In this document: piece after piece, positions 5,049 through 57,915 of the stretch
Position numbering within the stretch: the stretch's first letter is position 1
How the letters are laid out: each line of letters starts with the position of its first letter
Program-made: the position numbers and the translations under genes
The notes under the pieces: generated by a model
Databases searched by the model: none
What the model was told of the DNA's origin: nothing
The model's input: only the letters and a program-made list of their open reading frames with translations
Assembly: GCF_014199255.1 (NCBI RefSeq)
Contig: NZ_JACIJF010000005.1
Span: 186,001-250,000 of the forward strand
Origin: Sphingomonas xinjiangensis
GTDB taxonomy: Bacteria; Pseudomonadota; Alphaproteobacteria; Sphingomonadales; Sphingomonadaceae
Length of the DNA stretch: 64,000 nucleotides
Direction of reading: 5' to 3'

Positions 5049-5338
5049 CGAAGCCAATAAAATAGCTACGGCCCGCTCGCGGTGGATCAGGGCGCAATTC
5101 ACCCGTCAACCGATGATGAGGGTGGCCGCGGGCGCCTGTTGCCACAGTGTCCTGACCCAAGAACCCACTGCACAGCGTCAAGGTCTTCCGATTCGCAACG
5201 AGTGCAGACGAGGGGCTTATGATGGCGAAGCCTCCTAGGCGCAGAACCAACTATTAATCTTATAAATTGCACTTGCGCAGCCTTTGCGCCGTGTCGACGC
5301 GTAGCTAGTTCGTCTTGGGAATGTAGGCCTGACAACGC

Positions 5339-5371
5339 TTGACAACACTCCCGCCTGTGTTAGCGTTATCA
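5339..5371 (+). promoter_or_regulatory. Promoter -35 element with LacI-type box A (receptor 1)
   Basis: TTGACA at 5339-5344 is a good -35 hexamer. The 14-mer TGTTAGCGTTATCA at 5358-5371 covers the place of the -10 element. It matches the boxes at 18919, 16640 and 21441 (13 of 14 with the first of these). From memory it also resembles the xylose-operator consensus of Caulobacter XylR (TGTTAGCGCTACCA). A LacI-family repressor bound here would block RNA polymerase. The regulator gene is not obviously in this cluster. Confidence 0.6.
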
Positions 5372-5398
5372 CCGGCAAGGCAAAAATGCATGCCGGTG
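5370..5398 (+). promoter_or_regulatory. Inverted repeat in the leader of the receptor 1 mRNA
   Basis: CACCGGCA (5370-5377) and TGCCGGTG (5391-5398) are perfect 8-base arms around a 13-base loop containing AAAAATG. The repeat begins where box A ends and lies about 40 bases before the receptor start codon, so it would fold in the 5' leader. It is not followed by a T-run and so is not a normal terminator. Function unknown. Confidence 0.4.
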
Positions 5399-5438
5399 AC
5401 ACAAGTGGCTCTCCAGCAGCCATTGTCCAGGAGGGGAT

Positions 5439-41752: not shown

Positions 41753-41967
41753 CAAAATATCCCTGGGTTTTCCTGGATCAGCGTCTTCGCCTTGTTGTCG
41801 AGGCGATACACCACTTCCTGCGTGATCGAGATGTTCAAATTGATGACTATCGGCTTGTCCGGCGCAGACACGTTGATGCAACCACTCGTGGCGAACACAC
41901 CACCACATGCTGCCATCAACGCCACCACGCGGGGCGATACCGGGCCTACTGAACAACTCAACTTCAT
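41752..41967 (-). CDS. ynbE: YnbE-like small outer-membrane lipoprotein
   Basis: A 71-residue lipoprotein: a signal with a lipobox ending SGC (Cys30) then VSAPDKPIVINLNISITQEVV, the beta-strand-rich YnbE signature. In E. coli YnbE sits in the outer membrane and joins YdbH to form a bridge across the periplasm. Both ends overlap neighbours by 4 bases or less, so ydbH, ynbE and ydbL are co-translated. Confidence 0.88.
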   Translation of the reverse strand: MKLSCSVGPVSPRVVALMAACGGVFATSGCINVSAPDKPIVINLNISITQEVVYRLDNKAKTLIQENPGIF

Positions 41968-44900
41968 TTCCGCTCCTTTTGTCGCATCGATTGGCTGTCG
42001 GGTGCCTGAACGGGCGGCTGCGCCGCTCCGTCCGCCGCCGCGCGCGACTGCTCATCCAGCAGCGCCGGCAGGTTGCGTTCGATCAGCCGGCTCGGATCAT
42101 ACCAGGACTGGACCGAGCTCAGCAGCTGCTGGAAGGGTGCACTGATCCGAATGTTGAAGATGAACGGCAGCCGGGCGAGCCGCCGGATCACGAAGTTGGA
42201 CTTGGTACCCTTGCCCTGGCTGACGCCAGCGAAGCGGATGTCGGTCACCATGTCGCCGGCAAGCGGACCGTTCATGCCGATCGATAGACTTCGGTAGTTG
42301 AGCGACCGTAGCGCCTGAAACGCCATGTTCCCCCAGAAGCCCAGGTCGTGGCGCGACACTTCGCCAGCATACGCGATGGATCCGCCGGCGCGCGCCTCCA
42401 GCTTGCCGCCTTCGATCCGGCCGCCTTGCGCGTCGAACACCATCGGCAGCGTGCCGTCGAACGTCCCGGTGGCGCTGATGTTGTCGAATTCCATCTCTTT
42501 CAGGAACAGCGCCGCGTCCGCGCCGATCACTCGGAAGGTCAACCTCCGTTCGACGCTCTCCGAAAAGTCGAGCAAAGTGGGCTTCAGCACCAGCTCCCCG
42601 CCGGCAAAGGGCCAGCGTCCGCCCTCCACCTGCACGCGCTGGCTATCCAGTATCTGGAACCGCAGGATGCCGTCGGTCACCGGGACGCCGGGGTTGATCT
42701 CGGCCACCGTTGCCATTTGGCCAGCGGCGGTCCGCATCCCTAGCAGATCGGTGAAGTTTAGCGTGGTGGCAAGTCCGCGTAGGGGGCCGAACACAGCGGC
42801 GAGGTCGATGCCGTCTGTGCCGAAGGTGCCGCTGCTGGTCACGCCATCCCGGCTCCATGCGATCCTGCCTTGGCCCGACACCGCTCCGTTGACCTCGGCG
42901 ATCACGCCAAAGGTGAGCGGCGTCAGATCCCCTGGCTGCAGCCCCCGCTCGGCAAAGCGAAGCTGGTCCACGCGGATCTCGGCCGATCCGGTGCCGCTGT
43001 TCAGTGCATGCCCGATCCGCACATCGGCGACCTTCACGCCGCCTTGCAGCGTGTTCAAGGTCGCGCTTGCCCGGACTTCCCCCCCACTTACCCGGACCTG
43101 CGCGTTCTGAGTGGCCAGCGGATGGAAGCGGGCCGAGGTGGCCGTGTCGCGGACTTCGAGCCCTCCGGCAAGCGCCAGCGCCCCACCTTTCAGCTGCCAA
43201 TCTCCTGACCCTGCCGATACCAGCAGCGGGACCGCCCCGATCTGCCCGGAAAGTCCGGAAAACATCCCGTGCGGCGTCCCGCCGAACACTCCCGATAATG
43301 CCGCGACATTCATTCGGGTGTCGCCACCCGGGCCCAGCCGCAATGCTGCGCCGGCAACCGCAAGGCGCTGCCGCCTCAGGTCGAACCGCGCCTGCTGCGC
43401 TTCGAACCGAAGCGCGCTTGCACCAAGCATTCCGGCCAGACGCGGCTGTTGTAGCCGCACTCCGCCGCTCATTCGGCCTTGCTCCAGGCGCACCATCGCT
43501 CCGCCTTCCGGGCAGGCCGCCAGCCTGTGTGGGCCAAGTACCAGACCGCCGACGGCTAGGCGGTCAAATGCAGCGTCAAAGCAGCGTGTGTTGACGCTCA
43601 GCGACCCCGGCGCCCAGACGGCGCTGAGCGGAAGCCGTAGCTGCTCGACTCGGCCCTGCGATGTGCCACCGGTGAAGTCCGCCAGCGCACTCACCGCGCC
43701 GCTGCCACTGCCAAGCTGGAACGTCAGATCGGCTAGTGAAAGCCGGGCTCCGCCTGCGGCATAGGGCGCGATCGCGCCCGAGCCACGGATCTGATCCCTT
43801 TCCTGAAAGAAGCGCAGCGTCGCCTGCGGAAGCCCGCCGCCCCGAGTCGCAAGCGTACCCGCCGCCCGCACGGTAGAAGCTGGTCCATCCAGTCCTATCC
43901 GCGCCTTCCCGTTGAAGTCGGCCTGCCCCCCGCTCGCGGCCCGCACCCGCGCGGAGGACAGCGTCAGCGCCCCGGCACCCTGTCGGTACGCCATCGACAG
44001 GTCGCCGCTGGCATCGAAATTACGCATCGCTGCCGCTGCGGACCGCGCCAGCGCGGCCACGATCGGTTGAAGTGGTCCGGCGCTCACGCGCCTGTCCAGG
44101 CGCTCCACGTCGCGCCTCAACGACGGCATCAGCGATACCGAACCGAGTTGCGCCTGCCCAGTGAATGAAACACCCGATCCGCCGACCCGATATGCTCCCG
44201 CGACCGCAGCGATGCTTCCGCGATTGCCGCGCACATCGAAGCCGCCGGACCGCAGCGCGATGCGCCCCTGAGTCGCGTTCGCGCCACCCTCGAAGCTGGC
44301 CCCGCCATCCAGCGCCGCGATGCGCAACTCGGGTTGGAGAATGGCCTGCGCCTGCACGTCGACGGTTCCGCGCCAGCGGTCCAGCGCCTCGCTCAATTGC
44401 GCCTGCACCTCGATTCTTGCAGCACGAACCCCAGTCAGGCCGCACTGCGCATTCGCAATTGCCACGGGACCTGTCAGACCGAATTGCGACATTCGGACCT
44501 GCACCGCAAGCCGTCCTTCGGCTCGCAGCATCACGCACCCCGCCATAGCCAGTCGCGGCGCATTCGCCTGGACGACGCCCTTGAACCCGTCGCTCAGCAT
44601 GCCCTTGCCGGCCACCGCTAGCCGCATGGTACCCGCCGGGGTCTGCAGCAACACCTGCGCATCCGCCACGTCGACGATCAGCGCGGGCAGTGAAAAGGGT
44701 TTGCCCGACGGCGGCGGCATCAGCCGATCGATGGCGCCCAGCGACACGCGCCCGCCGACCACCCGGCCCCGCAACCGCACCTGCCCCGCGCGAATCGCGA
44801 GCACTTCCGCTCGCCACGGCGCTAATGCGGTCCGCACCTCTATCCAGTCCGCGGTAAGGTCCGGGTTGGCCGAGTCCCCAATAACGACCTTCGTCAGGCG

Positions 44901-45134
44901 CTGTCGCCAAGGCGATAGCTGCGTGAGCTCGTACGAAGCGGTCACACCCCGCCGGCTGAGTTCACGGTCTATGAAATCACGCGCAATCGTGCGCCGCTGA
45001 AGCCATGCGGCCGCAACGACAACGACGATAAGTAGCAAAAAGCTGAGCCACAGGCTCCGCCACGGACGCCCAGCGGGTGGACTCGCAGCTCCCGCCGCTT
45101 CCTCGCCCTGCCTTGCTATAGCGTCCCAACCCAA
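41964..45134 (-). CDS. ydbH: YdbH-type AsmA-like intermembrane phospholipid transport protein
   Basis: A 1056-residue protein with one N-terminal membrane helix (about residues 28-45, WLSFLLLIVVVVAAAWL) and a very long periplasmic beta-rich body, as in AsmA-like bridge proteins. E. coli YdbH (about 880 residues) works redundantly with TamB and YhdP in moving phospholipid to the outer membrane. The neighbours ynbE and ydbL confirm the identity. The conserved C-terminal segment (GTLPMVFDAQGGRIEGGKLEA cut to key part: DGTLPMVFDAQGGRIEGG) is present. Nothing suggests damage. Confidence 0.92.
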   Translation of the reverse strand: MGWDAIARQGEEAAGAASPPAGRPWRSLWLSFLLLIVVVVAAAWLQRRTIARDFIDRELSRRGVTASYELTQLSPWRQRLTKVVIGDSANPDLTADWIEVRTALAPWRAEVLAIRAGQVRLRGRVVGGRVSLGAIDRLMPPPSGKPFSLPALIVDVADAQVLLQTPAGTMRLAVAGKGMLSDGFKGVVQANAPRLAMAGCVMLRAEGRLAVQVRMSQFGLTGPVAIANAQCGLTGVRAARIEVQAQLSEALDRWRGTVDVQAQAILQPELRIAALDGGASFEGGANATQGRIALRSGGFDVRGNRGSIAAVAGAYRVGGSGVSFTGQAQLGSVSLMPSLRRDVERLDRRVSAGPLQPIVAALARSAAAAMRNFDASGDLSMAYRQGAGALTLSSARVRAASGGQADFNGKARIGLDGPASTVRAAGTLATRGGGLPQATLRFFQERDQIRGSGAIAPYAAGGARLSLADLTFQLGSGSGAVSALADFTGGTSQGRVEQLRLPLSAVWAPGSLSVNTRCFDAAFDRLAVGGLVLGPHRLAACPEGGAMVRLEQGRMSGGVRLQQPRLAGMLGASALRFEAQQARFDLRRQRLAVAGAALRLGPGGDTRMNVAALSGVFGGTPHGMFSGLSGQIGAVPLLVSAGSGDWQLKGGALALAGGLEVRDTATSARFHPLATQNAQVRVSGGEVRASATLNTLQGGVKVADVRIGHALNSGTGSAEIRVDQLRFAERGLQPGDLTPLTFGVIAEVNGAVSGQGRIAWSRDGVTSSGTFGTDGIDLAAVFGPLRGLATTLNFTDLLGMRTAAGQMATVAEINPGVPVTDGILRFQILDSQRVQVEGGRWPFAGGELVLKPTLLDFSESVERRLTFRVIGADAALFLKEMEFDNISATGTFDGTLPMVFDAQGGRIEGGKLEARAGGSIAYAGEVSRHDLGFWGNMAFQALRSLNYRSLSIGMNGPLAGDMVTDIRFAGVSQGKGTKSNFVIRRLARLPFIFNIRISAPFQQLLSSVQSWYDPSRLIERNLPALLDEQSRAAADGAAQPPVQAPDSQSMRQKERK

Positions 45135-45750: not shown

Positions 45751-47619
45751 TCAGCCAGTCGAATCGGCTACAATATGCCCCTTCAGCAGCGGCAGCATAA
45801 TGTGGAAGGTTGCACCTATATCGGTGTGAGGATCAAGGTCGATCGTTCCGCCATGGCGTTCCACGATTTCCTTGCTTATCGCCAGTCCAAGACCCGTTCC
45901 GGGCTGCCCCCGCTCCGACGGTGCCGCTTCTTGAGCGAAGCGCCCGAACAGCCTTTGGCGGAACGCAGGTGAGATGCCGCGCCCACGATCAATGACGCTG
46001 ATGCGTGCTTGGTCGTCCTGTACCACACATAATCGCAGTGTGACGTCGGATCCCTCAGGCGAGAACTTCGCGGCGTTTGAAATGAGGTTGCTCATCACCT
46101 GCATGAGGCGGTCGGCATCGGCGTTCACGACAACCGGTTTGTCAACGATCTCGGGCTTGAGCGCCACGCCAAAGCGCTGAGCATAGGCTTCGCTTTGCAT
46201 CACGGCCTCAGACAACAACGTCCGCAAGTCCGTAGCCTTAAAGCTAAAGGCTGTCTGGCCGAGCTCGAGCTTGTCCAGGTCGAGCAGGTCGTTGACCAAG
46301 CGTGTGAGCCGCTCACTGTTCCTATGTGCAATCTCGAGCAATCTTCGCGCGGAGTCCGGCAGCTCTCCCGCCATGCCGCTCTTGACCAGCGCTAGCGCCC
46401 CGGAGATCGACGTCAGCGGCGTGCGCAGCTCGTGGCTCACCGTGCTTACCAATTCATCCTTCAGCCGTGCGGCGCGATCCTCGTCCGTTATGTCTCGCAC
46501 AGTCAGAATGAAGCGGCCGCCGGGCAACGACTTACGGGTGACGTCGAGAACGCGACCGTCGTCGCGCCGCAGCTCCTGCTGACGCGCTTGGTAGCTGCGG
46601 AGCGACTCACGCAGCCTCTTGAGCGCCACCTCGACGCCCTCTCCCCCGAGCTCGCCTCGCTCTGCCGTCAGCCGTGCTAGCGCCAGGAAGTCGGCACCCT
46701 GGTAGACAGCCTCTCGTGGATAGCTCAGTAGCTCAATGAAACTTTCATTCCACAACATCATGCGCAGGTCGGCACTCACCAGCGCCACGCCTTCGCTTAC
46801 GTTCTCGACGGTGAGTTGAAGTAGCCCGGTAAGTTCGCGCAGCTCGACGTGAAAGCTTTTCTCGCGCGTTACGTCGGTGAAGAGCCAGACGCGGCCGGTT
46901 AATTCGTGTTGTTCGATGCGCTGCGTTTGAACTTTGTAGGTCTCTCCTCGATGCTCGATTTCGAACCCAGACGGCTCGCCAATGCCGAGGGAGAGTTCGG
47001 CATCACCGCTTGGCCGTTTGCCGGTCCCATGAACCAGCGCGGCCAATCTCTCCGCCACGGCAATCTGGCGGACCTGCTCGTTCGGAGTGAACCCGAGCAG
47101 CTCGCGGGCACGATCATTAAGGAATACCTCGACTGTGCCCGAGTCCACAAAGATCAAAGGTGCGGGAAGATTGTTCACCAGTGCGGCGATCCGGCGGGAC
47201 ACGTCTCGCTCCCGCTGGGTGCCGCCGCCGCTTCGAAGAACCTGGGTGATCACGGACGCTGCGTCCGCGAGTTCAACGGCCTCGGGCGCCGTGCGGGAGC
47301 AGGCAGCGACGAGATGCAATCCCCGGGTCGCAAGAGGTGCGGCCCCTAGCCAGGACGGGCGTGCTCCGCACGCCTCGATCCACTGCAATGGCAACCGGAT
47401 CGAACGCGTGTCGAGGACGGTCGGTACCGCGTTTATAAGCCCAGGCGGAACCCTCATGTCGTGACCGGCCAGGCCGCGCCCGGGATAGGTTTCGTCGACC
47501 CTGAGGCGTTCGCCATCATCGTGCCCCAAGAGCAAGAGATCGGCGTCTAGACTTTTTGCAAGCAGTCGTAACAAAACATGCGGAGATTGCAGTTCAGGCA
47601 AGGTGCGCCCCCAGGACAC
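45751..47619 (-). CDS. PAS-domain sensor histidine kinase paired with an RsbQ-like hydrolase
   Basis: I place the start at the GTG at 47619, or a TTG at 47601, because the frame further upstream lies inside the hydrolase gene. The roughly 622-residue protein has no membrane helix. It has a GAF-like N-terminal part (about 1-125), two PAS domains (about 145-255 and 270-375), a HisKA domain with His396 in SHELRTPL, and an ATPase domain with NLISNAAKFS, DRGRGI and GTGLGLAI. The end of the hydrolase gene overlaps its start, which mirrors Bacillus rsbQ-rsbP, where the hydrolase activates a PAS protein; here the output is a kinase. The likely targets are the receivers encoded divergently at 48.6-49.6 kb (inference). 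Confidence 0.87.
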   Translation of the reverse strand: MSWGRTLPELQSPHVLLRLLAKSLDADLLLLGHDDGERLRVDETYPGRGLAGHDMRVPPGLINAVPTVLDTRSIRLPLQWIEACGARPSWLGAAPLATRGLHLVAACSRTAPEAVELADAASVITQVLRSGGGTQRERDVSRRIAALVNNLPAPLIFVDSGTVEVFLNDRARELLGFTPNEQVRQIAVAERLAALVHGTGKRPSGDAELSLGIGEPSGFEIEHRGETYKVQTQRIEQHELTGRVWLFTDVTREKSFHVELRELTGLLQLTVENVSEGVALVSADLRMMLWNESFIELLSYPREAVYQGADFLALARLTAERGELGGEGVEVALKRLRESLRSYQARQQELRRDDGRVLDVTRKSLPGGRFILTVRDITDEDRAARLKDELVSTVSHELRTPLTSISGALALVKSGMAGELPDSARRLLEIAHRNSERLTRLVNDLLDLDKLELGQTAFSFKATDLRTLLSEAVMQSEAYAQRFGVALKPEIVDKPVVVNADADRLMQVMSNLISNAAKFSPEGSDVTLRLCVVQDDQARISVIDRGRGISPAFRQRLFGRFAQEAAPSERGQPGTGLGLAISKEIVERHGGTIDLDPHTDIGATFHIMLPLLKGHIVADSTG

Positions 47620-48427
47620 GAGCGATTTCGTCCGGCGCGGCAAGGTGCGGCATGTGACCGGGGGTGCCGATCCACTCCAGTCGGCTTCCTTCGATGTGCG
47701 ACCGCAGGTAGGTAGCAACGGCTTCCGGCACCGCAATGTCGCCGCGGGCATGCACCAGCACGGACGGCACGGTGACCAAGGGAAGCAATCGGCGAACGTC
47801 CGACTCGAAGATCGCCCGCGCGATCTGGATCGTCACGTCCGGCCGCATGGCGAGCAATCCTGCTGCGAAATCATCCACCGCGGCGGGCACGTCGACCCCG
47901 ACGGCCGCGGACGCGAACCCCGCTACCCAGGCCTGATAATTGTCTGCCATAGCTGCAAGCAGCCCCTCGACATCCGACTCTTCGAAGCCGCCGACGTAGC
48001 CGACGTCGTTCAGATAACGCGGCGATGCGTTGATCAGGAGCAGTTTGCGAAAGCGTTCGGACTCCTCGATAGACGCAAGGGCGCCGATCATCCCGGAGAC
48101 GGAGTGGCCGACATAATCACAGGAGGTGATACCCACCTCGTCCATGAGTGCGAGCAGGTCGTCAGCGAACGCTGCGATGGATCGATAATCTTTTGGATCG
48201 AAGTCCTCCGGCATCAGTGCCGATGCGCCCGGAATGTCATAAAGGAACGCGGTGAAAGACCCGCCAAGCCGTTCGAGTACGGCGTGCCACGAGCTTTGGT
48301 CGGTACCCAGGCCATGCGAGAAGACGACCACGCGCGAACCGTTCCCAACCAATCGGGCTCGATGACGCTTCGCCAAGGGTCCATCCAGCGAAAGGTCGAC
48401 CTCCTGCGTCCACGAAACTGACGACAT
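47594..48427 (-). CDS. RsbQ/KAI2/D14-like alpha/beta hydrolase (signalling type)
   Basis: A 277-residue alpha/beta hydrolase with the triad Ser109 (GHSVSG), Asp230 (ARGDIAVP) and His258 (PGHMPHL). The spacing of the last two (28 residues) equals that of Bacillus RsbQ (Asp219/His247, recalled), and the RsbQ family hallmarks PRYLND.GY.GGFE and the NYQAWV.GFA lid region are present. The family includes the plant karrikin and strigolactone receptors. In Bacillus, RsbQ acts with the PAS phosphatase RsbP to signal energy stress. Here it is followed by an overlapping PAS histidine kinase gene, so it probably feeds a small-molecule signal to that kinase. GGCAAGGAGATG precedes the ATG. Confidence 0.88.
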   Translation of the reverse strand: MSSVSWTQEVDLSLDGPLAKRHRARLVGNGSRVVVFSHGLGTDQSSWHAVLERLGGSFTAFLYDIPGASALMPEDFDPKDYRSIAAFADDLLALMDEVGITSCDYVGHSVSGMIGALASIEESERFRKLLLINASPRYLNDVGYVGGFEESDVEGLLAAMADNYQAWVAGFASAAVGVDVPAAVDDFAAGLLAMRPDVTIQIARAIFESDVRRLLPLVTVPSVLVHARGDIAVPEAVATYLRSHIEGSRLEWIGTPGHMPHLAAPDEIARVLGAHLA

Positions 48428-48572: not shown

Positions 48573-48953
48573 ATGATCTCCGTTCTGTACGTTGATGATG
48601 ACCCAGATATTCAGGAAATCGCGATGATGGCGTTTTCGCTCGATCCGGAACTCGCGGTGCGAACGGCATCATCGGGCGTTGAGGCGCTCAGCATTCTCGA
48701 CAGCGGGATGACGCCGGATCTGCTGCTACTCGACATGATGATGCCCGGCATGGATGGTCCAGCGACACTCGCGGCGATCCGCGAACGATCGCGTCTCGCG
48801 GACATTCCTGCCGTTTTCTTCACGGCGCGCGCTCGGGCCGGAGAGCACGAGGCCATTGCTGCGCTTGGAGCGGCCGGCGTGATCGCCAAGCCGTTCGATC
48901 CGATGATGCTCGCCGCCGAGCTGCGCGTGTTCGCCACTGGCGGCCCTCCATAG
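48573..48953 (+). CDS. Single-domain response regulator (CheY-like receiver) 1
   Basis: A 126-residue receiver with the acidic pocket (DDD at 8-10), phospho-acceptor Asp54 (LLLDMMMPGMDG), the Thr of FFTARA and the Lys of IAKPFD. No output domain follows. Stand-alone receivers act in phosphorelays or bind partner proteins. It is divergent from the RsbQ-like/kinase pair and 213 bases before the second receiver, so it may accept phosphate from that kinase or from the hybrid kinase at 54.7-57.9 kb. Confidence 0.88.
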   Translation: MISVLYVDDDPDIQEIAMMAFSLDPELAVRTASSGVEALSILDSGMTPDLLLLDMMMPGMDGPATLAAIRERSRLADIPAVFFTARARAGEHEAIAALGAAGVIAKPFDPMMLAAELRVFATGGPP

Positions 48954-49166: not shown

Positions 49167-49556
49167 GTGTCGAGTATACTGGTGGCGGACGACGACGACC
49201 TTTTAGGTGAACTGTTACGCTTCAAGCTCGAAGCGGCAGGCCACGATGTGACGATCGTCGAAGATGGGCAGTCGGCCCTTCAAGCGGCGCGATCGGGCAA
49301 ACACGATCTGATGGTGCTCGACTCGATGATGCCGGTGCTCTCCGGTCCGCAGGTCCTGCGCGCGCTGACGGAGGAAGGCTCTGCTCTGCCAGTCGTCATG
49401 CTTACCGCTCGCAAGGGGCAGGATGACGTTCTGGACGCGCTGTCTGCCGGTGCCCGCGACTATCTCACCAAACCGTTTATCCCGGACGAACTGGTCGCCC
49501 GCGTGAACACGATCCTCAAGAACGAGGGAAATCGTGTCGCGTCGGCAGATCACTGA
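49167..49556 (+). CDS. Single-domain response regulator (receiver) 2, first gene of the polysaccharide operon
   Basis: Translation most likely starts at the GTG at 49167, giving 129 residues that begin directly with the receiver's first strand (SSILVADDDD). A longer frame would add 36 residues unrelated to receivers. Asp52 (VLDSMMP), the Thr of MLTARKG and the Lys of LTKPF are present; no DNA-binding domain follows. It overlaps the start of the TPR-barrel gene by 23 bases and so belongs to the operon. It may control polysaccharide export or synthesis by protein contact rather than transcription (inference). Confidence 0.87.
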   Translation: MSSILVADDDDLLGELLRFKLEAAGHDVTIVEDGQSALQAARSGKHDLMVLDSMMPVLSGPQVLRALTEEGSALPVVMLTARKGQDDVLDALSAGARDYLTKPFIPDELVARVNTILKNEGNRVASADH

Positions 49557-50727
49557 AATGTCGATCGCGCTTGCGATAGCGGCAGTTGTTTTACCCTCCT
49601 CCGCCGACGCGTTCGCGCGAAACGCCGAGCTGCGCCAAAGCGGCCAGGATCTGCGAAACAGCGCTTTGGCAGAGGCGCGCGCCGCTAACGGGCGGGGTGA
49701 CTACAATGCCGCAATTCTGCGCCTTCAGCGGTTGCAAGCGGACTACCCACGCGACGCCGAGGTGCTGCGCGTGCTCGGCAGCAGCTATGCTTATGCACGG
49801 AGATTCGAGGAAGCGATCGCCACGTTGCGCCAGGCGCAAGCACTGGCCCCCGAGGATCTGGACATCCGAGCCGCGCTTGCACGCGCTTATGCCTGGTCGG
49901 GGAACAAGGCTGCTGCTGAAGCCGAACTGACCGCAGTCGAAGCGCGCGACCCCGCCAACGCGGATGCTGCGGCGATCCGGGTACAACTCGCCACGCCCAG
50001 CGATGTGGTGGCCACCGGCGCACCGAACGTCGCATATGGCCGGCCTGGCATTTATGCGAACCAGGCCGTCGCCCGTGTGTCCCTGGATCGCGGAGCGCAC
50101 TCAACCTGGTGGAACACCACGGTCGGTGCGTTTGGCACCGTGCTGCCAGGCACGACGGTGTCGGCCGAGGTTGAGCGTGAGGATCGTTCCGGAACAGTCG
50201 ACACTCGGCTGACGGCGCGCGCCGACCAGCGCTTCACCGCGAGCCTGCGCGGCTATCTCGGGCTTGCGGCGACCCCTCATGCGGACTTCCGCGAACGGTG
50301 GAGCGTGCGGGGGGGGCTTGAGTTTGATCTGCTCGGGCCGCTTACGCTGCTCATGGACGCGCGCCATGCAGACTATGGTGACGTGCAGGTAACCGCGATT
50401 GATCCTGGATTCCGCTTCGCCTCACGCGGGCTACGCAGCAGCGCCACGCTCCAGATGATTAATCTTTGGGATGAGCAGGGTAATCACCGGAGCGGCTGGT
50501 CCGGCAGGATCGACACCGAAGCCGGCGATGGGCTGCGCTTCTTCTTTGGGGGGGCGACCTATCCGGAAACGGAGGCCGGTATAACCCGCCAAGTGCGTTC
50601 GGCTTTCCTGGGCACTGCCGTGCCGCTGAGCGAGCGGCTGAGCCTGCGCGCTACCGGGGAGTATGAGCGCCGCGTGGATACGTACACCCGCAAGAGCCTG
50701 TCGCTCGGGCTTCAGTTGCGGCTCTGA
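49534..50727 (+). CDS. YaiO-like outer-membrane TPR/beta-barrel protein
   Basis: A 397-residue protein. The GTG at 49534 has GAGGG five bases before it and is preferred to the ATG at 49558. A signal peptide (to about residue 27, ending ADAFA) is followed by TPR-like repeats (about 40-150: GDYNAAILRLQRLQADYPRD and ARRFEEAIATLRQAQALAPED) and a C-terminal barrel of the YaiO family ending SLGLQLRL. The arrangement is like PgaA or the BcsC/AlgK-type exporters: TPRs in the periplasm attached to an outer-membrane pore. It is probably the exit channel for the polymer made by the glycosyltransferase two genes on. The stop and the next start share one base (TGATG). Confidence 0.85.
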   Translation: MSRRQITEMSIALAIAAVVLPSSADAFARNAELRQSGQDLRNSALAEARAANGRGDYNAAILRLQRLQADYPRDAEVLRVLGSSYAYARRFEEAIATLRQAQALAPEDLDIRAALARAYAWSGNKAAAEAELTAVEARDPANADAAAIRVQLATPSDVVATGAPNVAYGRPGIYANQAVARVSLDRGAHSTWWNTTVGAFGTVLPGTTVSAEVEREDRSGTVDTRLTARADQRFTASLRGYLGLAATPHADFRERWSVRGGLEFDLLGPLTLLMDARHADYGDVQVTAIDPGFRFASRGLRSSATLQMINLWDEQGNHRSGWSGRIDTEAGDGLRFFFGGATYPETEAGITRQVRSAFLGTAVPLSERLSLRATGEYERRVDTYTRKSLSLGLQLRL

Positions 50728-51707
50728 TGATGCTGCGCTTCCCGGCGGTTGCTGACGAGCTGGCCGGATTGGCGATCCAGATCGTAATCTGGGGCTCGCT
50801 CGCGATGTCGGCCCTCATATTGTACCTCGTGATCCGCCGTGACCGCAATGAGCGGCAGCGCAGCGTTCAGCAGGTTACCGCAAGAACCCTGACGCGCGAG
50901 ATCATGGCTGCACTCCCGCAAGCGGAGGATGTCGGAAGCGCGTTTGCGCATGCCTCCGTGGCGGAACGCGTCGCCGCCGTTTCCCATCTAAGCCGACTTT
51001 TGCGGGGTGATGATCTCGATCGCCTCGCTGCCTTTGTCGAACGTCATGAACTGGTGGCAAGGCTCACCCGACGGGTGGCGAAACGCCGGCTTGCCCGGCG
51101 CGTGAACATCGTCCGTTCGGTGGGAAGCGTTGGCGGGCCCCAGGCCGTCACCGCGCTCAACGAGCTTCTAGCGAACGATCCGGCCGCCGAAGTCCGCCTG
51201 GAAGCGGCCGCGATGCTTGCGCGCATCGACGCGCTCCCGTCGGCCAGAGCGCTTATCGAGGCGCTTGAACTCGCACATGCCACTGTGACGCCGCTACATC
51301 GCGCGCTCTTTCGTGCACTTGCCCCAAGCAGCGCGACTGAACTGGTGGAACTACTCGCCGAGGAGCAATCGCCTGACGTGCAAGCCTTGGTCGCCGATGC
51401 GCTGGGATCGAGCGAAGATTATAGCGTACTCAGGGCTCTGCGCAGTGCCGCTGCCTCGCCCGCACCGCAGGTGCGAATCGCAGCAATCGCAGCGATTTCA
51501 AGGCTCGGTCACCCAGGGGGAGCGGCTTGGCTGATCCCGTTGCTTGAAGACGATGACGAAATGGTTCGTGCGCATGCGGCACGCGCGTGCGGATCCATGG
51601 GACTGAGGGCCGCGATGCCGCGCCTCATCGCCCTGGCCGAAGATCCTTCTCCTTGGGTGCGGCTGCGGGCAAGTGACGCGGCCGAGATCTTGGGTGGCAC
51701 GGCTTGA
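50727..51707 (+). CDS. Membrane-anchored HEAT-repeat protein
   Basis: A 326-residue protein with one N-terminal membrane helix (about residues 12-36, AGLAIQIVIWGSLAMSALILYLV) and then a cytoplasmic solenoid of HEAT-like repeats (about 130-325), for example GPQAVTALNELLANDPAAEVRLEAAA in shortened form LLANDPAAEVRLEAAAML, and MVRAHAARACGSMG. HEAT repeats mediate protein contact. Sitting between the exporter and the synthase, it may scaffold the synthase or receive the signal from the receiver encoded first in the operon (inference). The gene overlaps both neighbours (TGATG, TTGA). Confidence 0.85.
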   Translation: MMLRFPAVADELAGLAIQIVIWGSLAMSALILYLVIRRDRNERQRSVQQVTARTLTREIMAALPQAEDVGSAFAHASVAERVAAVSHLSRLLRGDDLDRLAAFVERHELVARLTRRVAKRRLARRVNIVRSVGSVGGPQAVTALNELLANDPAAEVRLEAAAMLARIDALPSARALIEALELAHATVTPLHRALFRALAPSSATELVELLAEEQSPDVQALVADALGSSEDYSVLRALRSAAASPAPQVRIAAIAAISRLGHPGGAAWLIPLLEDDDEMVRAHAARACGSMGLRAAMPRLIALAEDPSPWVRLRASDAAEILGGTA

Positions 51708-53143
51708 CGAGTACCGATCTGTTCTTGCTGGTGCAGCGCGTCGGAGTAGGCGCGTTGGTTGCGATGGGCACGTTATGCTTCCTCGTGGTGACCCTGCGCA
51801 ACATCATGTCGGTGGTGCAGTTAGTATTGGCGGCGATCGAGTTCCAGACACGGATCAGGCCGGCCGCGCGCTCGTACGAATTGTGGAGCCGCTATGCCGA
51901 CCTGGCGCCCCCGGTCTCAGTCATCGCGCCCTGCTACAACGAAGAGCTTTCCATCGCAGACAGCGTGCGCTCTCTACTCTCCTTGCAATATCCCGACTTC
52001 GAAGTGGTGCTGGTCAACGACGGGTCTTCGGACGCGACGCTGGCTCGGTTGATCGATGAATTCGACATGCGGCCGGTTCAGCGCGAGCAATTGGTGGTTC
52101 TGCAGAAAACACGCATCCTTGGCGTATATGTTTCTGATGAGCATCCCAATCTGCTCTTGGTAGATAAGGAGAATGGGCGGAAGGCGGACGCTGTGAACGC
52201 GGGGATCGGCTTCTCCACAGCACCTTTGGTCTGCGTGATCGATGCTGATTCGATTATCGAACCCGATGGTCTGTTGCGCGGCACGGAGCCTTTCATGGCT
52301 GACGACGGAAGCCTTGTCGCCGTTGGCGGCACCATACGGATCGCAAACGGTTCAGCGGTCGACGGTGGCCATGTCCGGCAAATCCGGCTGCCGGCAGGGT
52401 GGCTGCCCCGTTACCAGATCCTTGAATATCTCCGCGCTTTCCTGACTGCACGCATCGCGAATTCGCGGCTGAACATGTTGCTGCTGATCTCGGGCGCCTT
52501 TGGCATCTTTCGTCGCTCGGTTTTGGTCGAAATTGGCGGCTATCGCCACGACACGGTGGGCGAGGACTTGGAGATCGTCACGCGTATTCACCGCCATATG
52601 CGCGAACAAAAGCGGCCCTATCGCATCGGGTTCATTCCCGATGTCGTCTGCTGGACCGAAGCGCCAGCCGACTGGAAAGGGTTGCGCAATCAGCGCTCCC
52701 GTTGGGAGCAAGGCGCACTGGAGACCCTCGTGCGGCACCGCAAGATGCTGTTCAACCCGCGCTATGGCCGCATCGGCATGGTCGCCTTGCCGCTGGTCAT
52801 CATCGAGGATGTACTTGGCCCGCCTTGCGAACTGTTCGGCTATCTGCTGGTGCCCATTTTGTATCTGCTTGGCCTCACGAGCGGCACGGTCGTGCTCGCC
52901 TTCTTCGCGATCACCGTGCTCTTCGGTACCGGGATCAGTTTGGGAACGCTTGCTCTGGAAGAGCTTCAGTTGCGCCGGACGCCGAGTGCTCGGGACCTGC
53001 TAAAGGTCGCCTTCGCGGCGCTCATCGAGAATCTCGGATATCGCCAGATCAATCTGGTGTTTCGGATTCGGGGTATGTGGCGCTTCTTCCGCAAGGATAC
53101 GGTCTGGGCATCGGCCGGACGCGTCGGCTTCTCCAAGTTGTGA
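51704..53143 (+). CDS. Processive family-2 glycosyltransferase (PgaC/hyaluronan-synthase type)
   Basis: A TTG at 51704 overlaps the previous stop (TTGA) and gives 479 residues. A first membrane helix (about 8-30) is followed by a GT-A domain with PVSVIAPCYNEE, VLVNDGSSD, the DAD motif in VIDADSII, the catalytic base in GEDLEIVTR and the QxxRW motif (QRSRWEQG) of processive synthases, then C-terminal helices. Such enzymes make and often extrude beta-linked polymers such as poly-GlcNAc. The polymer is unknown. It ends in a GTGA overlap with the hydrolase gene. The operon lacks a PgaD-like or PilZ-domain protein, so c-di-GMP control is not evident within it. Confidence 0.92.
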   Translation: MTSTDLFLLVQRVGVGALVAMGTLCFLVVTLRNIMSVVQLVLAAIEFQTRIRPAARSYELWSRYADLAPPVSVIAPCYNEELSIADSVRSLLSLQYPDFEVVLVNDGSSDATLARLIDEFDMRPVQREQLVVLQKTRILGVYVSDEHPNLLLVDKENGRKADAVNAGIGFSTAPLVCVIDADSIIEPDGLLRGTEPFMADDGSLVAVGGTIRIANGSAVDGGHVRQIRLPAGWLPRYQILEYLRAFLTARIANSRLNMLLLISGAFGIFRRSVLVEIGGYRHDTVGEDLEIVTRIHRHMREQKRPYRIGFIPDVVCWTEAPADWKGLRNQRSRWEQGALETLVRHRKMLFNPRYGRIGMVALPLVIIEDVLGPPCELFGYLLVPILYLLGLTSGTVVLAFFAITVLFGTGISLGTLALEELQLRRTPSARDLLKVAFAALIENLGYRQINLVFRIRGMWRFFRKDTVWASAGRVGFSKL

Positions 53144-54630
53144 AGCGTGAATGTCTTGCCTGCATCCAGGGCTTGCTCCTCGGCCTGGTGGCCGCGGCTT
53201 CGTGTGCGGCTGAAGTGAGCGCACAAGTTGCACAGCCTCTCTGGAGCGGTCCTGCCTCGCCTTCCTGGGCGGACGCAGAATCGCTGGTGATGGAAGGCAT
53301 ATACGAGGGTGACGCCTTCGCGCCCAAGACCATCCACCTGCCCGAAGTGCCCGCCGCGCCGGAGGTGCCGATGCTGCCTATGCTCGACAACTTGCTGCCG
53401 GTCTTCGACATGCGCGCGTTCGGGAGCGAGGAGCGCGTTACCGCAATCCGGGTGACTGATACCGTTCGCATCAGCTGCAAAGCCGGTCGGCGCCCCGCGG
53501 GCGTCCTGCTCTCGACCACGCATCGCTACCCACGCGGCATGATGGCGGAGCTTGTACTGAAAGCGACTGGAAGCGGCACCTTCGGCGCGTCCTTGATTGC
53601 CCCGGGAAGCGATGCACCGGCACCGCCGCAAGGGCTGCTGGGGACTGCGGCCCAATTGCGCTTGCCGCCAAATGGCGCAGCGGACATCGTCTTGACCTGC
53701 CCAGGCGATGGAGGCGAGCTTGTCCTCCACAGCATCAACATAGCCCCCCTTCCAAGCGCCTCAACGGCGCGCGGCACGTGGGTCTGGGATGCGGCGGAGG
53801 CCGTGCGCCACCCCGAAGCGTTCGCCCGCAGCCTGGCTGCTCGCGGCATGACCGAAATCGCGCTTCAGGCACCGCGCGATCCGATCCACGTTCCGGCGGT
53901 GGCAAGCGCGCTGGCTCGCAACAAGATCGACATGCTGCTGGTCGAAGGTGATCCGGGGATGACGAGTTCGGCCGGCCTTGAGATCGCGGTCGCCCGGGTG
54001 AAGCGCATACGCTCGGCCTTTCAACGCGCAGGCCTTCCGCTGCCGCGCCTGGAACTTGATATCGAGCCCTATGGCGCGGCCGATTACGCCGGCCATCCTG
54101 GGGCGGCATGGGGTCGCTGGGCCGTGGCCATAAAGGTGCTGTCCGACGTTTGGGGCAGTCGAGTCCTTGTGGATGTCCCCTGGTGGATGCTGCAGGTGCC
54201 GGGCGGCGAAGCCGCCCTGGAGCGCGCGCAGCCGGTAATTTCGACGATCGTCGTCATGGCATATCGAACCGACCCGCACGCCATCTTGGCCATAGCGGAA
54301 CCGTGGCTGTCGAGAAGAACACCGGTGAAGATAGCGGTTGAAGTCGGTCCGGTCGCGCCGGAGGTGCAGCGGATCTACCGGCGCGCGACACAAGGTGAGT
54401 TGGTCATGATAGGAGATCGCGCCGCGCTGTTCGAAACCTCCGCACCACGGCCGGGGGCGGACGCGGTGTTCCACTTGGTACGCGAAACGCAGAGCGATCC
54501 GCGCCGGATAAGCTTTCGAGGCCGAGAAGAAGGCCTTCCAACTGCCGAGCGCACCGTGGTGCCGTTTCTGCGCTCCTGGCCGAACTATACCGGCTTCAGG
54601 GTGCACGGACTAGGCGAAGGTGCGCCATAA
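53140..54630 (+). CDS. Exported TIM-barrel glycosidase-like protein of the polysaccharide operon
   Basis: The GTG at 53140, overlapping the synthase stop, opens a signal peptide (MKRECLACIQGLLLGLVAAA, cleaved after about residue 25-29). The 496-residue product has an N-terminal beta-rich part (about 90-200) and a TIM-barrel part (about 205-480) with LELDIEPYG (Asp307, Glu309) and VVMAYRTDP. These resemble the DxE and the M-Y-D segments of GH18-like barrels and of the C-terminal half of PgaB. It has no NodB deacetylase domain, so it is not a full PgaB. A role in trimming or exporting the polymer is inferred from position. I cannot name its family firmly. Confidence 0.7.
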   Translation: MKRECLACIQGLLLGLVAAASCAAEVSAQVAQPLWSGPASPSWADAESLVMEGIYEGDAFAPKTIHLPEVPAAPEVPMLPMLDNLLPVFDMRAFGSEERVTAIRVTDTVRISCKAGRRPAGVLLSTTHRYPRGMMAELVLKATGSGTFGASLIAPGSDAPAPPQGLLGTAAQLRLPPNGAADIVLTCPGDGGELVLHSINIAPLPSASTARGTWVWDAAEAVRHPEAFARSLAARGMTEIALQAPRDPIHVPAVASALARNKIDMLLVEGDPGMTSSAGLEIAVARVKRIRSAFQRAGLPLPRLELDIEPYGAADYAGHPGAAWGRWAVAIKVLSDVWGSRVLVDVPWWMLQVPGGEAALERAQPVISTIVVMAYRTDPHAILAIAEPWLSRRTPVKIAVEVGPVAPEVQRIYRRATQGELVMIGDRAALFETSAPRPGADAVFHLVRETQSDPRRISFRGREEGLPTAERTVVPFLRSWPNYTGFRVHGLGEGAP

Positions 54631-54663: not shown

Positions 54664-57600
54664 TCAACATGAAAGAGGTGCACCCACAATAAGGGGACTG
54701 ACGTCCGAGCCGGCAGCGCCTGCCAATTGCGCCGACATCGACTGCAAGCGCGCCGTGCGGTCTGAAGGGGCCCATGTCTCCAGTCCAACTTCGAGCTGAG
54801 CGGCAAGCCGGCCAAGTTCAGCATCTCCGAACATTGCCGCAGTGCCAGCCAGTTGATGCGCCAATCTGGCTAGTTCCTGAACCTCACCATCTTCGATGAT
54901 CTTAAGGCGTGCGACAGCTGCGACCCGGGCAAGCGTGCCTTCCTTCCGCTCGCGGTAGCGATCGCTCAAGCTCGGCTTTTGCACGGGCTCAGTGAGGAGT
55001 ATCGGCGCAGGCACAGCCGCATCCAAGGTAGGTGAAGAGATCGACAGAAGGCGCATGAGCGCACGCTCCATCTGTCGCTCGTCAAGCGGCTTGGCCAGAT
55101 GATCGTTCATGCCCGCAGCGATGCAACGTTGAAGGTGCGCCGGCTGTGCACTGGCAGTCAGGGCAATGATCGGAATCTCAGCATATGGGCCGTCACCAGC
55201 CCGGATGGCGCGGGTGGCCGCGAAGCCATCCATCACCGGCATCTGACAGTCCATCAGCACCAGGTCGAAGTTGCCACCACAGACTGCAGCCACCGCCTCA
55301 GCACCATCGCATGCAAGCGCTACTTCAAGATTGTATCGCGTAAGCGTCGCAAGCATCAGATCGCGATTGAGGTCGACGTCGTCAACCACAAGGATCCGCT
55401 TTCCTGCTAGATCCGCGAGACCCCGCGGGCGCTCGGATGCGCTGCCGTCCGGCCTCTCGGTAGCGGCTGCCAACGGAACCTCAAACCAGAAGGTAGATCC
55501 TTCGCCCAGCTTGCTGGTCACGCCCATGTCGCCGTTCATGAGCTCGATCAGCTGCCTGCTGATGGCCAGACCCAGGCCGGTGCCGCCGTAATGCGCTGCG
55601 ATCGCCGGCCCCGCCTGAACGAAACGGCTGAACAGGCTGTTCACTCGGTCTTCGGGGATCCCCGATCCAGTGTCGCGGACTTCGAAGCGAAGTTTCAGAT
55701 CTGCGCCCGTGTCCCCGACCGGCCACACGGAAAGCGTCACGGAGCCGTCATGCGTGAACTTGACCGCGTTCGATAGCAGATTGAGCACCACCTGCCGAAG
55801 TCGGCTGCTGTCCGCATTGACCCAGGTCGGAACGTCGGGACTGAGCAGTGCGAGGAGTTTCACGTCCCTGGCCTTGGCTTGCGGTTCCATCAGCTGGACC
55901 GCCTCACGGGCGAAACCAGGCAGGTCGAACGGCGCACAATCCAGCTCCAACCCGGCAGCTTCGAGCTTCGAGAAATCCAGAACGTTATCGATCACTCCCC
56001 GCAGCGCCTGACCGGCACTGTGGATCAGCTTGACGCGACGTCGTGTCTCCTCATGGAGTTCCGGCGCTTCCGTCAGCAGGTGCGAGAAACCGATGATGCT
56101 ATTCAGCGGAGTCCGCAGCTCGTGGCTCATGTTGGCCACGAAGTCGGACTTTGACTTGACGGCCCGCTCTGCCTTCATGCGCGCTTCTGCCAACGCGTCT
56201 TCCCGCCTTTTGCGCTCGGTGATGTCGCGAACAGCATCAATAAAGCCGCTTGGGCTCTCGTTCACCCCATCGTGAAGGATCCCGATGCTTGATTCCAGCC
56301 ATATCCACTCCCCATCCGCACGTTGCGCCCGCCAACGCACAGGTTTGGCGCTGCCAGACTGAAGGAGCACGGCATACTCCTGCTGCAGCTGGGGAAGGTC
56401 CTCTGGATGCACGAAATCAAAGGCACGCTTATTCAGGACATCGCTGGGGGAGAGACCCAGGATCCTCTGGCATGCCGGGGAAATGAAGGTAACACGACCC
56501 TTGATGTCGGTCGTGGTTATCATGTCGGTCGCGTTCTGCGCCATCAGGCGGTAGCGGTTCTCCGCCTCGCGCTCATTGGTCATATCTTCGATCTGGGCGA
56601 TCAGGTGTTGGGGAGAGCCGTCTTCCGCTTCTACCCGGGAGACGCAGAGCCGGACCCAGACATCGCGTCCGTTCTTGTGCACGTATCGCTTGTCGAGCTC
56701 GAAGCTGGCGATTTCTCTCGCAAGCAGCCGCTTAATCTCGGCCTCGCCAAGCGAAACATCGGCGGGGTGAGTCAGCGAGCGGAAGTCACGCTCCTGAAGC
56801 TCCTCGACCGAAAAGCCGACGATCCTTGAAAACGCCGCATTAACGCGGAGAAATCTGCCATCGAGCCCGACCAGCGCCATTCCGATCGGCGCGTAGTTGA
56901 ACGCGTTCTCGAATTGCGCCGCCTTTTTTCGCCGCTCTGAAATGTCGTGAAGGAGCGCGGTGAACTCCCAGCTGTCGCCCAGACGCGTAGCATTGATCGC
57001 AAGTTCGACCGGGAAGCGCGCGCCGCTACGATGCAGCGCCTGAACCTCGATCGTCTTGCCGATGAGGGTTCCTTCGCCTGTTTCGACAAACCGCCGCATC
57101 GCCGACCCGTGCGGGGAACGCATCTCGGGAGGAACGATCAGCTCCGCCAGATCCAGGCCGAGCGCCTCCTCTTCCGACCAGCCAAAGGTCAGTTCCGCTT
57201 GCCGGTTCCAGCAAGTGATCACCCCTTCGGCGCTCATCGTGACGATCGCCTGTTGGGCATTCGCGATGATGCCTGCCAGGCGCTGTTCTTTGGCGCGAAG
57301 GCTCGCCTCAAGCTGCAGTCGCTCGCCGACCTCGGAGGAAAGCCGGGACGCAGCCTCGGTTCGCTCCTCCAGCTTCTGTGCTGTGTGCTGGAAACGAAGC
57401 TGCTTCCCCATTTCGGCGGCCAGCACCGTCGTCAGCAGCCGAAGGGCATGTACGTCGTCTTCATCGAACCCGTTTGGCGCGTCGGAGCAGATCTTCAGAA
57501 CACCCACAGCCTCACCGCCTTGCAGGAGCGGGGCGCAGATCATCGACCTGATCCTCGTCCGCTCGCATGCGACCGCGTTGACCCGAGGGTCGCACGACGT

Positions 57601-57915
57601 GTCATCACAACGAAGCAGCTGCTTGCGCTCCACGCACAGGCCGGAGAGGCTCTCAGCTAGGGGAAGTCTTAGCCCCTTGAAGCTCGACAGGGATGTGCTC
57701 GATGCGCGATACACCATCTCGTCACCCTCTACGAGCTCCAAGACCGACGCAGTGGCGTTCACTAGCCGATCGAGCTCCTCGATCACCATGTGCATGAACT
57801 GGTCGAGGTCGAGCTCGGCCTCTGCAAGCCGCGACTGCACCAGGGCTAGCGCTTCGAGGCGCCGCACGCGTTCGTGAAGAGTGCTTGAGGATTGCTGTTC
57901 CTGAACATAGCCCAT
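54664..57915 (-). CDS. Hybrid sensor histidine kinase (GAF-PAS-PAS-PAS-HisKA-HATPase-REC-Hpt)
   Basis: A 1083-residue soluble hybrid kinase. Order of domains: GAF (about 20-185), three PAS/PAC units (about 215-335, 340-455, 460-580, the last ones ending in DMTNERE and DITERKRR), HisKA with His598 in SHELRTPLNS, ATPase (LLSNAVKFT, GTGLGLAI), receiver with Asp889 (LMDCQMPVMDG) and Hpt with His1020 (LAHQLAGTAAMFG). It thus carries all parts of a phosphorelay except the final receiver, and two stand-alone receivers are encoded at 48.6 and 49.2 kb. It converges on the polysaccharide operon with 33 bases between, a frequent place for a dedicated regulator. Confidence 0.93.
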   Translation of the reverse strand: MGYVQEQQSSSTLHERVRRLEALALVQSRLAEAELDLDQFMHMVIEELDRLVNATASVLELVEGDEMVYRASSTSLSSFKGLRLPLAESLSGLCVERKQLLRCDDTSCDPRVNAVACERTRIRSMICAPLLQGGEAVGVLKICSDAPNGFDEDDVHALRLLTTVLAAEMGKQLRFQHTAQKLEERTEAASRLSSEVGERLQLEASLRAKEQRLAGIIANAQQAIVTMSAEGVITCWNRQAELTFGWSEEEALGLDLAELIVPPEMRSPHGSAMRRFVETGEGTLIGKTIEVQALHRSGARFPVELAINATRLGDSWEFTALLHDISERRKKAAQFENAFNYAPIGMALVGLDGRFLRVNAAFSRIVGFSVEELQERDFRSLTHPADVSLGEAEIKRLLAREIASFELDKRYVHKNGRDVWVRLCVSRVEAEDGSPQHLIAQIEDMTNEREAENRYRLMAQNATDMITTTDIKGRVTFISPACQRILGLSPSDVLNKRAFDFVHPEDLPQLQQEYAVLLQSGSAKPVRWRAQRADGEWIWLESSIGILHDGVNESPSGFIDAVRDITERKRREDALAEARMKAERAVKSKSDFVANMSHELRTPLNSIIGFSHLLTEAPELHEETRRRVKLIHSAGQALRGVIDNVLDFSKLEAAGLELDCAPFDLPGFAREAVQLMEPQAKARDVKLLALLSPDVPTWVNADSSRLRQVVLNLLSNAVKFTHDGSVTLSVWPVGDTGADLKLRFEVRDTGSGIPEDRVNSLFSRFVQAGPAIAAHYGGTGLGLAISRQLIELMNGDMGVTSKLGEGSTFWFEVPLAAATERPDGSASERPRGLADLAGKRILVVDDVDLNRDLMLATLTRYNLEVALACDGAEAVAAVCGGNFDLVLMDCQMPVMDGFAATRAIRAGDGPYAEIPIIALTASAQPAHLQRCIAAGMNDHLAKPLDERQMERALMRLLSISSPTLDAAVPAPILLTEPVQKPSLSDRYRERKEGTLARVAAVARLKIIEDGEVQELARLAHQLAGTAAMFGDAELGRLAAQLEVGLETWAPSDRTARLQSMSAQLAGAAGSDVSPLIVGAPLSC

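Follow-up and report, generated by a model that had tools for sequence, protein, structure and literature searches.

Within a 64,000-nucleotide stretch of DNA from Sphingomonas xinjiangensis (GCF_014199255.1, contig NZ_JACIJF010000005.1, positions 186,001–250,000, forward strand; "the window", in whose coordinates positions are given), we studied an operon of five genes at 49167–54630. The arrangement of these genes is not due to chance, because the gene order receiver-YaiO-HEAT-GT2 and the overlap between the HEAT gene and the gene for the family-2 glycosyltransferase (GT2) recur elsewhere. By sequence comparison, a receiver without an output domain, a HEAT protein, and a GT2 that carries the QRxRW motif and no PilZ domain form a conserved, closely packed core; Gram-negative relatives, on the same basis, add a protein that combines tetratricopeptide repeats (TPRs) with a YaiO-family outer-membrane barrel. 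The core suggests a surface polysaccharide that is switched on by protein phosphorylation, and our favored reading, which we hold with somewhat more confidence than doubt, is that the locus specifies a system for synthase-dependent polysaccharide secretion, in which the GT2 would be controlled post-translationally by two-component phosphotransfer.

All five genes are on the + strand. The first (49167–49556; GTG start) encodes RR2, a receiver of 129 residues with the phospho-acceptor D52, in which the domain scan finds a single Response_reg domain (95.9 bits) and nothing else. The second (49534–50727), which overlaps the first by 23 bases, encodes the probable exporter, with TPRs (TPR_19, 36.8 bits) and a YaiO-family outer-membrane beta-barrel (TIGR04390 OMP_YaiO_dom, residues 184–395, 76.3 bits at a cut-off of 32). 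The HEAT protein (50727–51707; HEAT_2, 87.7 bits), with a predicted N-terminal transmembrane helix and cytoplasmic solenoid, is our proposed adaptor between receiver and synthase; its gene joins that of the exporter at TGATG and that of the GT2 at TTGA. The GT2 (51704–53143) is a putative processive, PgaC-like enzyme (83.0 and 74.7 bits to GT2 families), and a search of this genome with it shows one match at E-values up to 0.001. The last gene (53140–54630; GTG start, junction GTGA) encodes an accessory protein that, in its AlphaFold model, has a beta-sandwich and a glycosidase-like TIM barrel behind a signal-like N-terminal hydrophobic segment. A first-pass annotation, made from the sequence alone, had proposed these five overlapping genes, a membrane HEAT protein, and the lack of both a deacetylase and PgaD; the overlaps are confirmed, the HEAT assignment and its single predicted transmembrane helix hold, and none of the five proteins matches a deacetylase or PgaD family.

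In the mechanism that we favor, a flanking kinase with REC and Hpt domains would phosphorylate RR2, phosphorylated RR2 would dock on the HEAT solenoid, and the HEAT protein, placed beside the GT2 as PgaD is beside PgaC, would switch on polymer synthesis and translocation. The polymer would follow the TPR domain across the periplasm before exiting through the YaiO barrel, and the TIM-barrel protein would trim or release it in the lineages that have one; a second flanking receiver, RR1, would share or drain phosphoryl groups, a role that DifD has toward EpsW. We infer the phospho-gating of the GT2. Evenly balanced, in our judgment, is the broader proposal of a hitherto undescribed, phylum-spanning class of polysaccharide synthases in which a membrane HEAT protein replaces PilZ or PgaD, a phosphorylated receiver rather than cyclic di-GMP (c-di-GMP) switches the GT2 directly, and the exporter and hydrolase are exchangeable. 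If true, the receiver-HEAT-GT2 core would be a second, general means of coupling sensing to biofilm or surface-polymer formation, in diderms and monoderms alike, and it would provide a function for many proteins annotated as 'HEAT repeat', 'YaiO family' or orphan receiver.

Recurrence of the receiver-HEAT-GT2 arrangement

A profile of 13 GT2s searched against 84,980 species (one genome each) identified 577 relatives, the best 80 of which are the named loci of this work; these were picked by GT2 similarity only, represent the near part of the GT2 family, and hold 79 distinct GT2s. Counting genes within 4.5 kb 5' of the GT2 on the same strand, we find HEAT at 77 of the 80 named loci and a receiver at 70 of them; for the 69 loci whose upstream sequence extends 3.5 kb or more ("long" loci), the counts are 68 and 64, respectively. 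The sole long locus without HEAT (L080) has a GT2 match that starts at residue 105, that is, the first 104 residues are lacking. The HEAT and GT2 genes overlap or are separated by no more than 20 bases at 72 of 77 loci, and 44 of the 77 have a 4-base overlap (start codons chosen by script). In alphaproteobacterial loci and in Solirubrobacter, the receiver keeps its position just before YaiO or HEAT; in the window it overlaps YaiO. Solirubrobacter has the kinase gene first, followed by receiver, HEAT, and GT2. The first-pass annotation had called for a search for its gene order in other genomes and had named a lack of conserved linkage of the HEAT and receiver genes to the GT2 as grounds for abandoning its proposal; the order recurs, and the linkage is conserved.

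Phylum names are based on record titles and are in part our own assignment. Among the 80 loci are isolates titled as Pseudomonadota, Actinomycetota (Solirubrobacter), Bacillota (Clostridium and Paenibacillus), and Bdellovibrionota (Bdellovibrio sp. qaytius, a complete genome). Up to nine more phyla are represented, mostly by metagenome-assembled genomes, the labels of which may carry binning errors: Neomarinimicrobiota, Gemmatimonadetes, Opitutus and relatives, Bacteroidetes, Balneolaceae, Ignavibacteriales, Elusimicrobia, Chloroflexi, and Saccharicenans.

The arrangement was also recovered in other draws of genomes, which overlap (G423 is in two of them, and its contig and that of L043 are equal in length), so their counts are not additive. 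In 149 genomes of the window's family, searched with the HEAT protein alone, matches were found in the window's own genome and 13 others. The order YaiO-HEAT-GT2 is present in all 13 (the GT2 of one, L010, is cut by a contig end), and the receiver precedes YaiO in its own frame in 12, the thirteenth (L025) sharing a frame with YaiO; the 12 complete GT2s are 48–63% identical to that of the window and the 13 HEAT proteins only 23–36%. A profile of 59 GT2s (that of the window and those of 58 of the 80 named loci), searched against 349 genomes from the phylum of the window, identified 13 with a match (582–760 bits); setting aside the window's own genome and G091, HEAT is found in 11/11 (one at 35 bits), YaiO in 11/11, and a receiver in 10/11. 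A HEAT-profile search of 289 genomes from the class added five genomes (HEAT at least 127 bits) that all have a receiver and YaiO; four have the GT2, and the contig of the fifth ends just 3' of HEAT.

With a laxer GT2 threshold, 200 genomes revealed a gap in scores, with eight genomes at or above 623 bits followed by matches of 313, 180, and 178 bits. The 313-bit GT2 (L178) adjoins a HEAT gene and joins the 59 members in a single clade (support 0.94). HEAT was not found beside the two weaker GT2s, nor was it found at the loci for YaiP, PgaC, BcsA, and NfrB in Escherichia coli. We also considered whether HEAT proteins are generally encoded beside GT2s; this is ruled out, since 0/5 generic HEAT loci (five fetched from the 13 genomes with weak HEAT hits) have the linkage, and receiver, YaiO, and GT2 are all absent from these five.

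Core proteins and proposed control of the synthase

We aligned 70 receivers (RR2 and those of 69 named loci). The phospho-acceptor D52 is present in 69, K102 in all 70, and threonine or serine at position 80 in 68; with this conservation, RR2 and its relatives are, as read from the alignment, phosphorylation-competent. With its one Response_reg domain and conserved phospho-acceptor site, RR2 fits a single-domain response regulator.

The AlphaFold model of the HEAT protein (pLDDT 95.3) has a long first helix (residues 6–62) followed by the solenoid; Foldseek matches are for the most part designed alphaRep, armadillo, and HEAT proteins. Of 77 HEAT homologues, 74 have a first hydrophobic segment that is strong, and in all 74 lysines plus arginines are more numerous after it than before it. 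We predict, therefore, from the model and the positive-inside rule (74/74), a single N-out/C-in helix with the solenoid in the cytoplasm, where it is expected to share a compartment with the receiver and the expected active site of the GT2.

Processive GT2 synthases are defined by the motifs DxD, (T/G)ED, and Q(Q/R)xRW. All of these are present, and N105, G107, S108, D180, D182, E287, D288, Q330, R331, R333, and W334 are invariant in the 59 members; the motif columns align with PgaC and BcsA from E. coli. The first-pass assignment as a processive synthase agrees with these motifs. A search of solved structures with the GT2 profile identified general GT2 relatives only. One alternative is that the GT2 is not a polymerase and adds sugars to lipid or protein, with the YaiO and TIM-barrel proteins serving another envelope process. 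The type of polymer is not readable from the sequence, which leaves room for this alternative; we nevertheless consider it very improbable, given the invariant processive hallmarks (N105-G107-S108, D180/D182, E287-D288, QRxRW), the poly-N-acetylglucosamine (PNAG) synthase as best curated model (134.3 bits, below its cut-off), and the presence in the operon of TPRs and an outer-membrane barrel, comparable to the outer-membrane exporters encoded in pga, bcs, and nfr operons.

Two genes just outside 49167–54630 probably belong to the system. RR1 (48573–48953, +; Response_reg 78.2 bits) is a second stand-alone receiver and a probable phosphorelay partner or phosphate sink, and the convergent gene at 54664–57915 (−) encodes a hybrid histidine kinase that, from its domain scan (GAF-PAS-PAS-PAS-HisKA-HATPase-REC-Hpt), is the probable input kinase. 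RR1-like receivers (at least 90 bits to RR1, and scoring higher with RR1 than with RR2) occur at 22 of the 80 named loci, nearly all labeled Alphaproteobacteria, and a kinase often adjoins; at L026 and L030, stand-alone Hpt proteins are encoded beside the kinase and RR1-like receiver. Of the 64 named loci of at least 12 kb, 42 have a kinase core within the sequence fetched, as compared with an expectation of 24% (from the 73 HATPase matches in the window's own genome, that is, the density of one genome applied to all).

Several observations weigh against control by a dedicated stand-alone receiver and its kinase. No kinase core was found at the other 22 of the 64 loci. The upstream count includes no receiver for five of the 69 long loci (L080, L083, two from Paenibacillus, and one from Elusimicrobia), and at L083 a receiver (147 bits) is found on the opposite strand only. 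The stand-alone receiver described by the first-pass annotation as the first gene is just that in the window; in relatives, however, it shares its frame with one or two more receivers at 11 of 70 loci. The frame has a single receiver domain at the other 59, although these include L088, with its receiver in a longer protein, and L068, in which it shares the frame with YaiO. Also, at L088 and L105 the counted receiver belongs to a larger protein, and a further receiver (123–124 bits), on the opposite strand, separates it from HEAT. Finally, proteins in which GGDEF is combined with two or three receivers (four of the five also having Hpt) are encoded in the clusters of L069, L078, L081, L089, and L102, that is, in all five of the ten loci labeled Neomarinimicrobiota that were scanned.

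The loci from Paenibacillus and Elusimicrobia, in which HEAT and GT2 are kept with no detected receiver, indicate that the HEAT-GT2 pair can persist without one. They are consistent with a real polysaccharide system in which HEAT is a constitutive scaffold that stabilizes the GT2 or bridges it to the TPR exporter, with the receiver acting elsewhere (on expression, motility, or as a relay node). The tighter linkage of HEAT (77/80) than of the receiver (70/80) to the GT2 also points in this direction, and single-domain receivers can act as phosphorelay nodes. A receiver that acts elsewhere would not need, however, the position before YaiO or HEAT that is kept, and we regard this scaffold as unlikely, albeit the least unlikely of the alternatives.

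The fusions of GGDEF and receiver domains in the five loci from Neomarinimicrobiota make c-di-GMP input possible. In this alternative, which we consider improbable, c-di-GMP would gate the synthase as with PgaD or NfrB, HEAT would be a nucleotide-sensing or co-catalytic subunit, and the receivers would act upstream on diguanylate cyclases. It draws further on the c-di-GMP regulation of PgaC, the nearest characterized GT2; on a CHASE4-GGDEF-EAL protein identified by domain scan 4.4 kb downstream of the operon (59009–61270, +); and on L178, in which the divergent HEAT-GT2 pair (313 bits) is flanked, divergently, by a gene for a receiver-HD protein that is HD-GYP-like (L178:9800–10837, +). It is opposed by the absence of a PilZ match in all 59 GT2s (one from the window and 58 from named loci) at E-values up to 0.01, by the occurrence of GGDEF in only one of the 70 receiver references (trimmed to the receiver start, so that domains fused in front are invisible in this count), and by the scarcity of relatives of the GGDEF-EAL protein, which occur near no more than five of the other fetched loci. 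The first-pass proposal of a synthase gated by phosphorylation instead of c-di-GMP is therefore in keeping with the absence of PilZ matches and, as a hypothesis, fits the alphaproteobacterial loci; it may fail elsewhere, because of the loci with GGDEF domains, without receivers, or without kinases.

Export barrel, TIM-barrel protein, and other flanking genes

YaiO, counted up to 4.5 kb upstream and up to 3 kb downstream of the GT2, is present at 56 of the 80 named loci; this is a lower bound, since some contigs are short and our profile missed at least the Bdellovibrio locus L109, which has a YaiO barrel by the Pfam model YaiO (3.6e-55). No YaiO match was found at the ten loci titled Actinomycetota/Thermoleophilia, Bacillota or Chloroflexi, which we take to be monoderm, as compared with 56 of the 70 others (Fisher p 1.2e-6, the grouping having been made after the pattern was seen). 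The presumed monoderm loci keep HEAT (10/10) and the receiver (8/10); thus, the receiver-HEAT-GT2 core is separable from the diderm export part.

At two loci, receiver and YaiO matches are in one stop-free frame (L068:5649–7091, +; L025:1354–2862, −); it is unusual for a cytoplasmic domain to share a frame with an outer-membrane barrel, and an internal start or a sequence error are candidate causes. In the Paenibacillus loci L086 and L092 (about 1570–6860, +), HEAT-GT2 is preceded by a pair of large genes (products of about 736 and 1015 residues). Those of L086 have no Pfam match at E-values up to 1e-5, and these genes are possible monoderm export or surface partners; in Clostridium (L076), the first of two large genes upstream of HEAT also has no Pfam match.

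The TIM-barrel protein has no Pfam match at E-values up to 0.001 and no NCBIfam match at E-values up to 1. Its AlphaFold model (mean pLDDT 86.5) contains a beta-sandwich (residues ~34–204) and the barrel (205–495); the latter superimposes on the C-terminal domain of PgaB (4p7q) with a Z-score of 16.7 over 232 residues at 3.9 Å. Chains of glycoside hydrolase (GH) families GH1, GH35, and GH18 and of the PgaB C-terminal domain (presumably GH153) are tied at Z-scores of 16–17, and the Foldseek ranking is uninformative (low TM-scores). The barrel sequence matches a structure from Cellulomonas fimi (10yv, titled putative GH97; E-value 7e-9). The acids D306, E308, and E400 do not vary among 10 homologues, so the protein is likely a glycosidase. 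Homologues (E-value < 1e-12) are located in the fetched flanks of 9 of the 80 named loci, upstream, downstream, or on the opposite strand, with two weaker matches in Paenibacillus; none was found in the fetched flanks of L032 and L036, whose GT2s are 74% and 80% identical to that of the window, and only one of the 148 other genomes of the family has one. The exported, glycosidase-like protein of the first-pass annotation thus keeps its signal-like segment and barrel and loses its place as a constant part of the operon: the varying positions, the nine loci, and the absence from the flanks of L032 and L036 rule it out as a core component, and it is a recurrent accessory.

The remaining neighbors are upstream. 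A PAS histidine kinase (45751–47751, −; domain scan) is a possible second input, and the start of its gene is overlapped by that of an alpha/beta hydrolase (47594–48427, −) that is closer to DAD2/D14, the plant strigolactone/karrikin receptors (E-value ~2e-76), than to RsbQ (1.4e-44); the other loci searched yielded a single weak relative, in L032. We take the two to be a hydrolase-sensor pair like RsbQ-RsbP, with a kinase replacing the phosphatase. A YdbH-like intermembrane phospholipid transport protein is encoded farther upstream (41964–45134, −; Pfam, 357 bits).

Comparison with known polysaccharide systems

A full-text literature search, in an incomplete library without preprints and hence weak as evidence, gave no description that we recognized as a receiver-HEAT-GT2 operon, and the passages available from PMC12419801 concern beta-catenin and a reference, not this operon. 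The search likewise provided no named polymer or operon for a homologous system, the second finding that the first-pass annotation had said would count against it.

The closest of four GT2s from E. coli is PgaC (127.5 bits with the 59-member profile). The operon and pgaABCD share an outer-membrane exporter with TPRs (which we take PgaA to carry), and the C-terminal barrel of PgaB is among the top folds for the TIM-barrel protein. However, the operon lacks the polysaccharide deacetylase and PgaD, adds HEAT and a receiver, and falls far below the cut-offs of the PgaC/IcaA model (TIGR03937, 134.3 of 422.3 bits) and the PgaA model (TIGR03939, 19.3 of 366.65 bits). An ordinary pga or yai operon is ruled out by the missed equivalog cut-offs and the absence of deacetylase and PgaD. 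The outer-membrane exporter of the first-pass annotation is therefore upheld as a TPR/barrel protein, of the YaiO type rather than the PgaA type.

The uncharacterized yaiSPXO cluster from E. coli is alike in its YaiO-family barrel and GT2, but YaiP scores lower (56 bits) than PgaC, that stretch has no HEAT or receiver match, and it encodes a deacetylase (YaiS) and an acyltransferase whose gene is broken by IS2 (YaiX). The bcsABZC and nfrAB operons, as the operon here, combine a GT2 synthase with an outer-membrane exporter. BcsA, which is activated by c-di-GMP, scores 34 bits with the 59-member profile and NfrB, annotated as c-di-GMP-activated, has no match; also, the cellulose synthase has a PilZ domain that the window's GT2 lacks, and this GT2 scores 52.4 bits with the CelA model (cut-off 699.1).

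The post-translational control of synthase-dependent polysaccharides is, according to PMC12802240, well characterized and frequently involves c-di-GMP. Synthase-dependent secretion is a known kind of system; what appears new is the control unit of receiver and HEAT, together with its breadth. The nearest parallel for the control is EpsW/EpsZ in Myxococcus (PMC12802240): the kinase DifE phosphorylates two stand-alone receivers, EpsW and DifD. Phosphorylated EpsW is a post-translational activator of polysaccharide synthesis, acting on the phosphoglycosyl transferase EpsZ, and DifD serves as a phosphate sink, a sharing of one kinase by two receivers that we propose here as well. That system differs in that it belongs to a Wzx/Wzy pathway and another enzyme class, with a receiver thought to bind the enzyme directly and no HEAT adaptor. 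By analogy, the two-receiver logic of EpsW and DifD, with a HEAT adaptor and a processive GT2 as the target, is the mechanism that we consider most likely.

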